Shown in pieces: positions 9,357 to 35,932 of a DNA stretch of 64,000 nucleotides (the first letter of the stretch is position 1; the number at the start of each line of letters is the position of its first letter). Made by a program: the position numbers and the translations under genes. Below the pieces are notes generated by a model. The model saw nothing but the letters and a program-made list of their open reading frames with translations. It was not told where the DNA came from and searched no databases. The stretch comes from an uncultured Aeromonadaceae bacterium (GTDB lineage: Bacteria; Pseudomonadota; Gammaproteobacteria; Enterobacterales; Aeromonadaceae), in contig CAMFKP010000004.1 of assembly GCA_945957385.1 (NCBI GenBank), forward strand, positions 1 to 64,000. Reading direction: 5' to 3'.

Positions 9357-9392
9357 CGCTATTGGGGCCAGGCATCCCTGGCCCCAATAGCG
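9357..9392. terminator. 16-bp perfect hairpin between corA and the Nudix gene
   Basis: CGCTATTGGGGCCAGG (9357-9372) pairs perfectly with 9377-9392 around loop CATC. It fills almost the whole gap between convergent stops. It has no T-tract on either strand, so it may act mainly as a 3'-end barrier for both mRNAs. Confidence 0.65.
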
Positions 9393-24766: not shown

Positions 24767-26297
<1,531 letters not shown>

Positions 26298-27674: not shown

Positions 27675-27760
27675 GCCACTCTCCTTGACGAAGTGCACAA
27701 ATGGTAATCCATTCAATGCCTTTGACAAGAGTAAGCCGTTATCAATTGACTCAACGAAAC

Positions 27761-27792
27761 AAAAAAATAACGCACCCCGAGGGGTGCGTTAT
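27761..27792 (-). terminator. Intrinsic terminator of the XRE regulator gene
   Basis: ATAACGCACCCC and GGGGTGCGTTAT (27767-27778 with 27781-27792) form a 12-bp palindromic stem. On the minus strand the stem is followed by seven T. It separates the regulator from the protease gene. Confidence 0.88.
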
Positions 27793-27808
27793 CGATGTAA
27801 CGAATGAA

Positions 27809-28072
27809 TCAGCGCTGATACTGCTCAGGACTAATTTGACCAATCTCGGCTGCCGTCTTGTCAGACAACAACCACAGGGTAAATTGATGAAGTTGAGCGT
27901 GACGAGACAGTGCGACGAGAAACGCACCGCCGACTTCACGATATCCCAATTCATAGTTTTTCAGCGTTGTTGGCGGAACGCTCAGCAGTTCAGCAAACTT
28001 GGGGCGGCTCAGGCCTACCGTTTCGCGAATTTGACGGATTTTTTGTCCTACAGAGACTTCACTGTTATTCAT
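27809..28072 (-). CDS. XRE-family helix-turn-helix regulator
   Basis: 87 residues. A single HTH_XRE domain covers about 10-65: VGQKIRQIRETVGLSRPKFA followed by ELLSVPPTTLKNYELGYREV, with the typical recognition helix. The C-terminal tail ends ISPEQYQR. There is no sensor domain. Such short Cro/C2-like proteins control nearby genes or phage functions. ATG 28072 follows AGGA; a GTG 12 bases upstream is less likely. It faces the unrecognised gene at 28351 across an intergenic region holding a 16-bp perfect inverted repeat, a good candidate operator. Confidence 0.85.
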   Translation of the reverse strand: MNNSEVSVGQKIRQIRETVGLSRPKFAELLSVPPTTLKNYELGYREVGGAFLVALSRHAQLHQFTLWLLSDKTAAEIGQISPEQYQR

Positions 28073-28219
28073 ACGATTCCTCACACAGCTAACTTTGCGG
28101 CTCAGGGCAGCAAAAAAGATTCAGACCAAGTAGACCAGTTTTTGTATGTCAGTTTTATCCGGCTCGGCTGTATCGTTGTTGTGTCGTTATCGTTTTGTCA
28201 TTTTCGCGTGCTATCTCTA

Positions 28220-28257
28220 CTCACGGACAATTGTGCAATTACACAATTGTCCGTGAG
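28220..28257. repeat. 16-bp perfect inverted repeat between XRE gene and unknown gene
   Basis: CTCACGGACAATTGTG (28220-28235) and CACAATTGTCCGTGAG (28242-28257) are perfect inverted repeats around CAATTA. The site is in the divergent promoter region, 148 bases from the XRE start and 94 from the other start. No T-tract follows on either side. The core ACAATTGT is itself a palindrome in each arm, so two stacked dimer sites are possible. Confidence 0.75.
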
Positions 28258-28350
28258 CGATGCGCATGTTAAACCTATCAGTTGACAGGGTAAACAAAAA
28301 AACAGTTTCCACTTGAATTCAGTGTAGCCCATTTGGAGCATTGTCAACGC

Positions 28351-28932
28351 ATGTCACTCTCGCTGGCCATGTACTTCACGGCGGAACAGTTGTTCCGAGT
28401 AGCGCAATCCCCCTCACGCCACTGTGTGGAACCGCTAAATATCAGACAATGCGATGCCATCGCCACGCAATGCGCGTCCCCATCAGCAGAGCCATTGCTG
28501 GCTGATTTCGCCAACCGATGCGGGAAAAAAGGGTTAATACGTCCTCTCACGGTTCACACCGGGACACTCCCAAAGGCGGCGGTGGAAGATTGGAAGTTAT
28601 TTGGCACCGAGGCAAGCCAGCCGCAGATGATCGACGCCTCGCAACTACAGAGCTTTGCCGATTGGCACGCCGACACGTTGCCACAGTGGTTAATCGTACC
28701 GGCCCCGTTATTTGCAGTAGCAAAAGGGCTCGTCAATATATACAAACTGGACCCCTACCTGGCGCGCCACTATTTACGTCAGCTCCACCCTCTGCTCGCC
28801 GTCCTGACGCCCCATGATATCGACACCCTGCTGTGGGCCAAAATGGCCCCTTCTTCCAACCACCTCAGTGCGAATCAGCACCGGTTCTGTCAATTTGAGA
28901 AAAAAATAGTCCGCCAATACGACGCGCATTGA
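28351..28932 (+). CDS. Unrecognised protein divergent from the XRE regulator
   Basis: 193 residues from ATG 28351. The GGAG at 28335-28338 is rather far away, and an in-frame TTG at 28333 is a weaker alternative. I recognise no family. There is no signal peptide or clear membrane segment. It contains several Cys in the first third (SRHCVEPLN, RQCDAIATQC, FANRCGKKG) and a hydrophobic, probably helical middle (WLIVPAPLFAVAKGLVNIYK). The Cys spacing might bind a metal or form disulfides; this is inference. It stands alone between the palindrome and ompA. Confidence 0.6.
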   Translation: MSLSLAMYFTAEQLFRVAQSPSRHCVEPLNIRQCDAIATQCASPSAEPLLADFANRCGKKGLIRPLTVHTGTLPKAAVEDWKLFGTEASQPQMIDASQLQSFADWHADTLPQWLIVPAPLFAVAKGLVNIYKLDPYLARHYLRQLHPLLAVLTPHDIDTLLWAKMAPSSNHLSANQHRFCQFEKKIVRQYDAH

Positions 28933-29036
28933 TCGCGCTGGTCAGGAATCATCCAGATGAAAAGCCAGCGCTTTCAAATTAACCACAGATCCCGCTTATC
29001 TCGATAAAGTTGTTGTTTTTTAAGCTATTGGGGGGA

Positions 29037-29065
29037 TTGGCAGCGTAAGGGTCTCGGCTCATAAT
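29037..29065 (+). promoter_or_regulatory. Sigma-70 promoter of ompA
   Basis: TTGGCA (29037-29042), 17 bases, CATAAT (29060-29065): five of six matches in each box. The leader to the ATG would be about 50 bases, ending in a GGAG ribosome site. Confidence 0.65.
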
Positions 29066-29121
29066 ATGACGCGCATCACAATCCCGTACCTAAACGGGCT
29101 ATTCCATACTTGGAGATAACA

Positions 29122-30162
29122 ATGAAATCGACAGTGGCTTCATCCCTCGTTGCCAGCCTGGTTGCTGGTCTGATGTTCAGTGCTTCCGCTCAAGCTAACG
29201 ATGCTCAAGGCGCATTTGTTGGCGCCGGCGCTGGTTGGTCCCAGTACCGTGATCTGAATGATATCGCCAGCTCAGGTGTTAATCGCGATGCCACCTCCAG
29301 CCGTCTGCTGGGTGGGTACACCTTCAATCAATACCTCAGCCTGGAAGCAGGTTATGACTGGTTAGGTCATGCCAAGGCCGGCGGCGATACCTATCGTATC
29401 GATGGTTGGACGCTGTCTGCGCTGCCACGCTACCCGCTGACCAAGTCCATCTCCCTGCTGGGTGAATTGGGCCTGATGCGCGACTTCACCACTAATGATG
29501 CCCGTGACACCAAGGCTCATGGCTATTCTCCGGTCTTTGGTATCGGCGCTGCTTACCGTGTAAACGATGCGCTGGATCTGCAAGCCCGCTATCGCATCGT
29601 CGATGATGCTGGCCGCGGCGCAACCGGCAACACTGATGTCAACAACCTCGGTCTGGAAGTGGTCTACTACCCAACCCGTAGCAGTGCGCCTGCTGCCGTA
29701 GCCGCACCAGCGCCTGTTGTCGAGCCGGCTCCGGCCCCTGCTCCGCAGGAAGTGGTTGAAACCAAACGTTTCACCCTGACCTCTGATGTCCTGTTTGACT
29801 TCGGCAAGGCAACCCTGAAGCCAGCTGGCCAAGCTGCCTTGACCAAGCTGTACAACGAAATCAGCACCCTGGATATGAAGGATCATCAAACCGTCGTCTT
29901 CGGTTATACCGATCGCATCGGTAGCGATGCCGCTAACCTGAAGCTGTCACAACAACGCGCTGAGTCCGTTGTTAACTTCCTCAAGGCCAAGGGTATCGCT
30001 GGCAACCGCATCACGGCGACAGGTCGTGGTGAAGCCAATCCGGTGACCGGCACCAGCTGCAACGGTATCAAGAACCGCAAGAACCTGATCGCTTGCCTGG
30101 CAGCCGACCGTCGTGTTGAAATTGAAGTCAAGGGCATCAAGGAAGTTGTAGTTCAGAAGTAA
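29122..30162 (+). CDS. ompA: OmpA-family outer-membrane porin
   Basis: 346 residues. The signal peptide runs about 1-23 (ASLVAGLMFSASAQA then ND). An eight-stranded beta-barrel domain (about 24-185) has alternating aromatic strands such as AFVGAGAGWSQYRDL and LSLEAGYDWLGHAK. A Pro/Ala hinge (VAAPAPVVEPAPAPAPQ) leads to the peptidoglycan-binding OmpA C domain with GYTDRIGSDAANLKLSQQRA and the paired Cys loop TSCNGIKNRKNLIACLAADR. It links outer membrane and cell wall. The ATG at 29122 is set by GGAG and the signal. A strong promoter and terminator frame it; codon use looks highly expressed. Confidence 0.95.
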   Translation: MKSTVASSLVASLVAGLMFSASAQANDAQGAFVGAGAGWSQYRDLNDIASSGVNRDATSSRLLGGYTFNQYLSLEAGYDWLGHAKAGGDTYRIDGWTLSALPRYPLTKSISLLGELGLMRDFTTNDARDTKAHGYSPVFGIGAAYRVNDALDLQARYRIVDDAGRGATGNTDVNNLGLEVVYYPTRSSAPAAVAAPAPVVEPAPAPAPQEVVETKRFTLTSDVLFDFGKATLKPAGQAALTKLYNEISTLDMKDHQTVVFGYTDRIGSDAANLKLSQQRAESVVNFLKAKGIAGNRITATGRGEANPVTGTSCNGIKNRKNLIACLAADRRVEIEVKGIKEVVVQK

Positions 30163-30902: not shown

Positions 30903-32057
<1,155 letters not shown>

Positions 32058-33930: not shown

Positions 33931-35052
33931 TTACTTCTTGATCACTGCGGTCTGCTGGCGACTGAACGCCTTGGACAGACCGAGGAACATCTTGCTGACA
34001 ACAGAAGACGGTACCGGCTTCTTGTTCTCGTCAAACAGCGTGATTGAGGTCTTGCCTTTATATTCACCAAATTGCAGGCGATAGGTGCCGGAATCTAGCC
34101 CGAACGGTTCGAGATCCTTGGCCTTCCAGAAATCACTATTCGGCTCATCATAATCAACTTCGATCAGTCCCTTGGACTGGGTCTTGCTGTTGATTTCAAA
34201 GTTCAGTTGCGGCAGCAACGCAATCACCCGATCCCAAGTGGTTTCGAAGGAGGCGTCAACCAACCAGGCCGTCAGGCCATTATCATCGACACCCAACGTC
34301 ATCTGCAGGCGGTTAGTGTCCTTGCTCACCACGCCAGCACGCAGTTGCTTGTCATAATCAACGGCGACCTGGTTCAGCATCAAGGCGGAATAACGCTGCT
34401 GGTCAAACGTAGTGAGCGCCGGCATATCATCACCATTGATCCCATATTCATGGTTCAAAAGTTGTGCAGTCAGACCGGTGCGATGGCGTTCCTTGTCACT
34501 TTTGATGATGAAGCGGTAGCGCTGATGCACCTGAACGTCATCATTGTCATCGGACTGTTCAGTCCATGGCTCCAGACGGGAATTAGCATAAAACCAGCCG
34601 GTATCCAGGCTGCGGTTGGCAATGTTCATATCATCGATGGCGACACCACGCCGCCGCAGGAAAGCAATCACTTCATTCCAGATATCATTGTCGATCTGCT
34701 GCGTGACACTGCGGGCGGTAAACCAGAGGGTGGAGCCATTGCCATCACTCTCGGCACGACTTCCCGGAACCAGAGTGAATACCTGAACCGGGGTACGGAT
34801 ATCGACATCGGCGCCTAACGGGCTATTAGGAACACCCGCCGCCAACGCTGGAACGCGATAGTCGGTCAGCAATCCTGGTGAACTGAGCTCAGCGGGAACC
34901 ACCAGCGGCTTATTGACCGTCTTGGTATCGAGATAGTTGAAATCACCATCGGCCTGGCGGAGATCCATCTTCGATGAGCAGCCCGCCATCAGAAAACTGA
35001 AAACACCGCCGAGAAGAACAACAGAAAATCGGGTGGTTGGTTGTTTATGCAC
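33931..35052 (-). CDS. bamC: BamC (NlpB), lipoprotein of the outer-membrane assembly machine
   Basis: 373 residues. The lipoprotein signal ends in the lipobox LMAGC near residue 25. The unstructured N-terminal region that binds BamD is seen as SSKMDLRQADGDFNYLDTK. Two helix-grip domains follow (roughly 100-215 and 230-345). BamC is a non-essential member of the BamABCDE complex that folds beta-barrel proteins. The start overlaps the end of dapA by eight bases, the same arrangement as dapA-nlpB in E. coli, so translation is coupled. Confidence 0.94.
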   Translation of the reverse strand: MHKQPTTRFSVVLLGGVFSFLMAGCSSKMDLRQADGDFNYLDTKTVNKPLVVPAELSSPGLLTDYRVPALAAGVPNSPLGADVDIRTPVQVFTLVPGSRAESDGNGSTLWFTARSVTQQIDNDIWNEVIAFLRRRGVAIDDMNIANRSLDTGWFYANSRLEPWTEQSDDNDDVQVHQRYRFIIKSDKERHRTGLTAQLLNHEYGINGDDMPALTTFDQQRYSALMLNQVAVDYDKQLRAGVVSKDTNRLQMTLGVDDNGLTAWLVDASFETTWDRVIALLPQLNFEINSKTQSKGLIEVDYDEPNSDFWKAKDLEPFGLDSGTYRLQFGEYKGKTSITLFDENKKPVPSSVVSKMFLGLSKAFSRQQTAVIKK

Positions 35053-35932
35053 GCTTGATTAACTCCGCTCGGGTCAGTGCCTGCTCCATCGCCATGGCAC
35101 CATCGGTGCTCAGGGGGGTTAGCGGCAAACGTAACCCGGAATTGGCTATCAAGCCCAGTCGGGCACAGGCCCACTTGACCGGGATTGGATTCGATTCAAT
35201 AAACAGCGTCCTGTGTACCGGCATCAACTGTTCGTTCAGCGCCAGTGCCGCATCGCGTTCACCGGCCAACGCCAGACGGCATAACTGCGCCATCTCTGCG
35301 GCCGCCACATTGGTGGTTACAGAGATCACGCCATTGCCCCCACGCAACATGAAATCGCAGGCAGAGGCATCATCGCCACTGTAGAGGGCAAACTCAGCCC
35401 CACACAGGTCGCGCAAAGTGGTCACACGCGCCACATCCCCTGTCGCTTCCTTGATACCACAGATACCAAACTGCTGCGCCAGACGCGCGACGGTGGCCGG
35501 TTGCAGATCGCAGCCGGTACGACCCGGGACATTATAGAGAATTTGTGGCAGACCACTAGCCTCGCCAATCGCGGCATAGTGGCGATACAGGCCTTCTTGC
35601 GTAGGTTTGTTGTAATACGGGGTAACGGAGAGCCCCCATTGGATCCCCAGTACTTTCAGTTCACGCGCCAGCTCAATGGCATGACGGGTGTTATTGCTGC
35701 CACACCCTGCCAGCACCGGGATACGACCGGCAGCCTGCTCCAGCGTAGCGCTGACCACGGCCAGATGTTCGGACATCGACAAGGTGGCCGACTCACCGGT
35801 TGTGCCCACGACCACCAATCCCGCCGTACCCGCTAAGATGTGGTACTCGACCAAACGTTGCAATGAGGAAAAATCCACCTCCCCCTGCTCGTCCATGGGG
35901 GTGATGAGGGCAACGAGACTACCGCTTAACAT
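35045..35932 (-). CDS. dapA: DapA, 4-hydroxy-tetrahydrodipicolinate synthase
   Basis: 295 residues (E. coli 292). Condenses pyruvate with aspartate semialdehyde, the first committed step of lysine/DAP synthesis, usually inhibited by lysine. The TIM-barrel markers are GTTGESATLS, NVPGRTGCDL (catalytic Tyr nearby) and GIKEATGD with the Schiff-base Lys. ATG 35932 has GGAG nine bases upstream. It is the first gene of dapA-bamC-purC and is divergent from gcvR, as in E. coli. Confidence 0.97.
   Translation of the reverse strand: MLSGSLVALITPMDEQGEVDFSSLQRLVEYHILAGTAGLVVVGTTGESATLSMSEHLAVVSATLEQAAGRIPVLAGCGSNNTRHAIELARELKVLGIQWGLSVTPYYNKPTQEGLYRHYAAIGEASGLPQILYNVPGRTGCDLQPATVARLAQQFGICGIKEATGDVARVTTLRDLCGAEFALYSGDDASACDFMLRGGNGVISVTTNVAAAEMAQLCRLALAGERDAALALNEQLMPVHRTLFIESNPIPVKWACARLGLIANSGLRLPLTPLSTDGAMAMEQALTRAELIKRA

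Follow-up and report, generated by a model that had tools for sequence, protein, structure and literature searches.

The locus analysed here is best explained by a chromosomal relative of the P2 C phage repressor, stably kept beside ompA. In this reading, to which we assign a probability of about one half, its gene (xre) has a private 5' hairpin, a leader element (element A) and an extra 193-codon gene at its side. The window, a stretch of 64,000 nucleotides from an uncultured Aeromonadaceae bacterium, had previously been read from the sequence alone, and the locus was described as a lone regulator facing a Cys-rich gene of unrecognised family across a palindrome, a pair that looked self-contained and could be a small accessory module. 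The XRE gene, the palindrome with its perfect 16-bp arms and the divergent 193-aa ORF were all confirmed. The starting idea is corrected in that the palindrome is private to one genome, and it is other parts of the leader that hold the conserved signals.

Read from its ATG, xre occupies 27812-28072 on the minus strand and encodes 87 aa, with the stop codon outside these coordinates; the program-made ORF list gives a longer frame at 27809-28084 (-). A terminator scan placed an intrinsic terminator, made up of a 12-pair stem and a subsequent T run, 3' of the gene at 27766-27793 (-). On the plus strand, the 193-aa ORF lies in the xre-ompA interval, running from an ATG at 28351 to a stop codon ending at 28932, and is followed by a predicted ompA promoter, TTGGCA-N17-CATAAT, at 29037-29065 (+; 10/12 in the promoter scan) and by ompA itself at 29122-30162 (+; PF01389, E 1.3e-30; PF00691, E 1.9e-20). 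The seven neighbours tested against Pfam belong to the DapB, GNAT, M48, OmpA, DUF2498, ArsC and M20 families. Rfam searches of 27700-29150 of the window and of four loci gave no match above the gathering score. The sole low E-value in the window (sau-6072, 27763-27803, E 0.0012) was rejected as an RNA family, as it coincides with the xre terminator and its score is under the cut-off. A literature search of titles and abstract openings returned no publication on the locus.

Profile searches with XRE detected an HTH_3-type domain (PF01381; E 1.3e-7, 32 bits against a cut-off of 23) and a match to PHROG 147 (phrog_147) with an E-value of 5e-20, while comparison with the known-system models of PADLOC gave generic HTH matches only. 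Residues 7-83 of the 87 match the P2 C protein (2l49/2xcj) with an E-value of 2.5e-7. When 50,697 phage records were searched in translation, 102 matched, all below 60% identity, and in 97 of them at least 80% of the query was covered; P2 C itself is among the phage matches listed, with 42% identity. The similarity thus has the full-length extent expected of a P2 C-type repressor, and XRE is, as judged by sequence comparison, a full-length homologue of the P2 C repressor.

Orthologues of xre were found in 59 of the 61 genomes of the bacterial family, with 71-92% identity in relatives, the two misses being G017 (87% complete) and G083 (84% complete). The gene is a core chromosomal gene of the family, and several family genomes contain additional copies, mostly at 41-55% identity. 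Weaker matches, with a best identity of 45%, were present in 5/39 other genomes of the order, and in a class sample of 369 genomes only the window's own genome passed an E-value of 1e-12 (0/368 others). The kinship would presumably run from phage to chromosome. A P2 immunity switch lies in a prophage and faces an early lytic operon; here the neighbours are not phage genes, and their families, together with a linkage to ompA that is conserved across genera, argue against a prophage setting.

In 20 loci read from five genera, an ompA homologue was divergent to xre in 19, the sole exception being L047 of genus g3. The constant neighbour of xre is therefore the divergent ompA, and there is no specific link to the 193-aa gene. 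The term lone regulator, applied in the sequence-only reading, does not suit a near-universal family gene with such a constant neighbour. In all 23 Aeromonas species loci the order xre, 193-aa gene, ompA is identical. A tandem ompA pair is present in 22 of these 23 loci (L073-L095 set; L079 incomplete), and locus L056 has three ompA matches. A phage-repressor relative has thus been kept as a core gene beside ompA, including in all 23 named Aeromonas species examined. XRE may act on ompA, and this gene for a major outer-membrane (surface) protein would be an obvious testable target.

The distribution of the 193-aa gene is much narrower. With the window protein as query, 13/61 family genomes matched, its own genome included. 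An Aeromonas homologue used as query found matches in 38 of 75 family genomes. These comprise 35 of the 37 Aeromonas genomes (genus g5), the window's genome (G000), its congener G002, and G031, whose weak match (E 5.6e-5) covers 60 residues in a frame of 371 aa and was set aside. A scan with one genome per species (84,980 species) yielded 23 loci with a homologue, all of them in Aeromonas. The gene was not found in genera g2 and g4, nor in congener G001, which is 65% complete, yet its xre-ompA interval was read. Within Aeromonas, G110 (80% complete) has neither the 193-aa gene nor an xre match. G101 (99% complete) keeps xre with its leader, and ompA, with a spacer of ~760 bp and no such ORF between them (L172, 1753-2514), the 193-aa gene having been lost there or never present. 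In total, no 193-aa gene was detectable beside xre in 18 of the 20 loci read, nor in G101. Because xre is kept without the gene, the interpretation of the two as a self-contained accessory module was rejected.

Searches of Pfam, NCBIfam, PHROGs, PADLOC and PDB sequences with the 193-aa protein gave no significant match, bearing out its description as a protein of unrecognised family, and PADLOC gave no known-system match for either the protein or its homologue. A similarity to HAD proteins (PF12710 in 6/13 members, best E 0.004) was discarded, the fold search giving no support. The protein contains 5 Cys in 193 residues, none of them in the invariant columns of its family, and is not usefully called Cys-rich. 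Purifying selection acts on the gene within Aeromonas: the median dN/dS is 0.177 for 21 pairs drawn from 16 sequences, after exclusion of pairs with unequal length, less than 80% identity or dS of at least 2.5. Its product changes much more rapidly than XRE. The 193-aa gene is a fast-evolving but selected addition to the xre-ompA interval, and its partnership with the regulator is not obligate.

As the sequence-only reading had anticipated, xre accompanies the 193-aa gene in every case examined (13/13 loci and 23/23 Aeromonas species). This strict adjacency would suit a protein that modulates XRE in response to a ligand or acts as its antirepressor, the pair forming a functional unit where both genes occur. 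A precedent is the E protein of P4, an antirepressor that inactivates the P2 C repressor according to PMC4752584, and the DHDPS/NAL-like fold described below could bind a small molecule. We consider such a role very improbable, given that xre is kept without the gene in G001, G101 and two genera, that the protein evolves so much faster than XRE, and that the fold is without sequence support.

Structural models of the 193-aa family were built and compared with known structures. The model of the Aeromonas rivipollensis homologue is confident (pLDDT 90.8, pTM 0.86), and that of the window protein is not (pLDDT 51.7). Foldseek analysis of the homologue model gave no match below 0.001. The best match was keto-deoxyarabonate dehydratase (E 8.7e-3, probability 0.89), all 50 listed structural matches belong to the DHDPS/NAL group, and realignment covered 180/197 residues with an rmsd of 3.4 and a Z of 15.1. 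The order of elements in the model suggests, in our reading, a barrel without its middle strands. At the sequence level, PF00701 did not match any of 13 family members at E <= 1, and hhalign profile comparison with DHDPS gave probabilities of 4.0% (14 members) and 1.8% (45 members), leaving DHDPS homology without sequence support; the second, weaker alignment pairs the expected C-terminal parts but does not reach significance (P 0.47 to 0.89). The comparison alignment A4 contains GTTGE (G42 T43 T44 G45 E46) and K160, which we take to be the Schiff-base lysine; the invariant columns of the 193-aa family (alignment A2) include neither this motif nor any lysine. Since the profile-profile comparison does not support homology, we speak of resemblance only: in its model, the Aeromonas homologue looks like a DHDPS/N-acetylneuraminate-lyase barrel of reduced length.

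The window also contains dapA (PF00701) at 35045-35932, dapB at 24767-25579 and an M20 peptidase at 30924-32057, all within ~11 kb. The M20 peptidase looks like dapE (the name being our own reading), and a distance of 6 kb separates dapA from the 193-aa gene, the Aeromonas homologue of which is similar to DapA in its modelled fold. A more elaborate scenario would have a P2-type immunity repressor captured by the family ancestor and rewired beside ompA, a long structured leader setting its expression, and a shortened, fast-evolving pseudo-aldolase serving as a small-molecule-sensing modulator in two genera. We regard this combination as more remote still than a modulator role by itself.

The palindrome spans 38 bp (28220-28257) and reads CTCACGGACAATTGTG-CAATTA-CACAATTGTCCGTGAG, with perfect 16-bp arms at 28220-28235 and 28242-28257 and a loop of 6; counting the loop in, the arms extend to 19 nt at 95%, and the RNA form is an 18-bp hairpin. 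Both arms contain ACAATTGT, as originally noted (28227-28234 and 28243-28250, the copies starting 16 bp apart), and these are the only two occurrences in the window, where 1.04 are expected. With an arm of 16 and a loop of at most 8, it is the joint longest perfect inverted repeat of the 64 kb, tied with a second one at 9357-9392 that has 16-bp arms and a 4-nt loop. Across 20 first-order Markov simulations no arm reached a length of 12, so chance does not account for the palindrome. Folding of the RNA gave -30.5 kcal/mol (z -9.95), with none of 200 shuffles as stable.

The palindrome is present as a single copy in the window's genome and lies between divergent starts, so that a 3'-end terminator or a dispersed 3'-end structure, the possibility raised against it in the sequence-only reading, does not apply; the xre terminator is a different hairpin, that at 27766-27793. 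No exact match was found in viral contigs. The palindrome is also absent from 12 homologous loci and from the aligned leaders of relatives, and is therefore not a conserved operator of the pair. Alignment within the genus revealed that the palindrome region is extra length relative to G001 and G002. The corresponding 5' segments (G002, z -0.56; G001, z -1.45) fold not clearly better than shuffles, so that the predicted 5' hairpin is a local gain and is not conserved in the genus.

A promoter-like pattern with a constant 17-nt spacer, TTTACC/G-N17-TAnnAT, was written after the alignments had been seen. It is found upstream of xre, between -159 and -222 relative to the ATG, in 33/33 loci from Aeromonas, g4 and the window's genus, and in 0/11 loci of g2 (10 loci) and g3 (1 locus). 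In the window, the predicted promoter TTTACC-N17-TAACAT lies at 28266-28294 (-), with the -35 at 28294-28289 and the -10 at 28271-28266. Its hexamers are weak, and a stricter general promoter scan did not list it. Transcription of xre would start near 28258, directly at the palindrome and, if the promoter is right, the transcript begins with the hairpin. Because it begins at the predicted start, the palindrome is most likely the 5'-terminal hairpin of the xre mRNA. Stabilising hairpins at the 5' terminus are known on bacterial mRNAs, for example in the E. coli ompA leader.

The main rival, and the view taken in the sequence-only reading, is that the palindrome is an operator: two XRE dimers would occupy its two ACAATTGT copies and thereby regulate xre as well as the 193-aa gene. 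The sites are symmetric, lie between divergent genes and overlap the predicted start of xre transcription, and within the window ACAATTGT is confined to the palindrome, all of which is consistent with this view. Two points speak against the reading: the loci read around orthologues that are 71-92% identical lack the palindrome, and P2 C, the nearest relative of XRE with a solved structure, recognizes 8-bp direct repeats 22 bp apart and not palindromes (PMC4752584), whereas the ACAATTGT copies start 16 bp apart; we consider it unlikely. A somewhat less probable proposal is that the palindrome is unrelated to XRE, being the operator of another regulator or a recently gained cis-element. Its single occurrence in the genome and absence from homologous loci accord with such an origin, but a single genomic site would be unusual for a regulator, and arm-like sequences number 19, both arms included, against 17 in the control.

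Motif search and leader alignments identified a conserved signal closer to the gene. Element A, at 28150-28166 (-) in the xre leader, reads GAGCCGGATAAAACTG in the window's genus and is the same in g4 with GC for AC; counterparts of the GAGTCCG/GAGTCTG type occur in Aeromonas and g2. In the motif search of 15 upstream regions, the best totals were 43-45 mismatches, whereas shuffles gave 54-60. Among the Aeromonas genomes that were searched, matches with 0 mismatches were confined to xre and the remainder were at control level; element A was rejected as a regulon motif. Six genomes of g1 and g4 contained 30 matches with at most 2 mismatches, against 5 in controls, those away from xre nearly all having 2 mismatches. 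One match with a single mismatch lies outside the xre locus in the window's genome (G000:C20:10233-10249, L133). Element A is the best candidate for an xre operator or an RNA control element.

Two further features of the leader were observed in other genera. In g4 (L048, L049, L050, L057, L058), a conserved AAATACAGACTATAATAAA, exact in 5/6 loci, precedes element A and is possibly a second xre promoter. The Aeromonas leader has a mean identity of 89%, and its predicted structure is paired in 99.0% of cells, with compensated changes in 10 cells against 3.6 in shuffles. This covariation rests on two pairs, mostly one U-A/C-G pair in nine sequences, and lends modest support to the leader as an RNA element. 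Repressors of the P2 C type are ~90-100 aa in length and bind two direct repeats that flank the -10 of the early promoter. The sequence ACGAGTC occurs twice in Aeromonas, ~31 bp apart, around a possible -10 noted by eye; as this pair is not conserved in the window, P2-C-like direct repeats are not claimed.

These features are consistent with the following mechanism. In the window's genome, xre would be transcribed leftward from the conserved sigma-70-like promoter (28294-28266), giving a leader of ~190 nt ahead of the ATG. The palindrome, at about +2 to +39 of the transcript and in this genome alone, would form a very stable 5'-terminal hairpin in vivo that probably shields the xre mRNA from decay from its 5' end. 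Element A, within the leader, would act as the gene's own operator or as an RNA control element, and we infer that XRE autoregulates through this leader region.

Comparison with known systems places these proposals in context. Like P2 C, XRE is a small single-domain HTH protein, with similarity across residues 7-83. In contrast to that of P2 C, its gene is part of the chromosomal core and is flanked by an M48 peptidase gene and ompA rather than by phage genes, and it diverges from ompA or the 193-aa gene instead of from a phage early operon. The modelled Aeromonas homologue of the 193-aa protein can be aligned with the DHDPS/NAL class I aldolase barrels (PF00701) over most of its length, but the family is ~100 residues shorter. 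With hairpins of the E. coli ompA-leader type, the locus shares a very stable stem-loop predicted at the start of a transcript; here the stem-loop belongs to the xre transcript and not to that of ompA, lacks conservation among relatives, and is placed at a predicted start.
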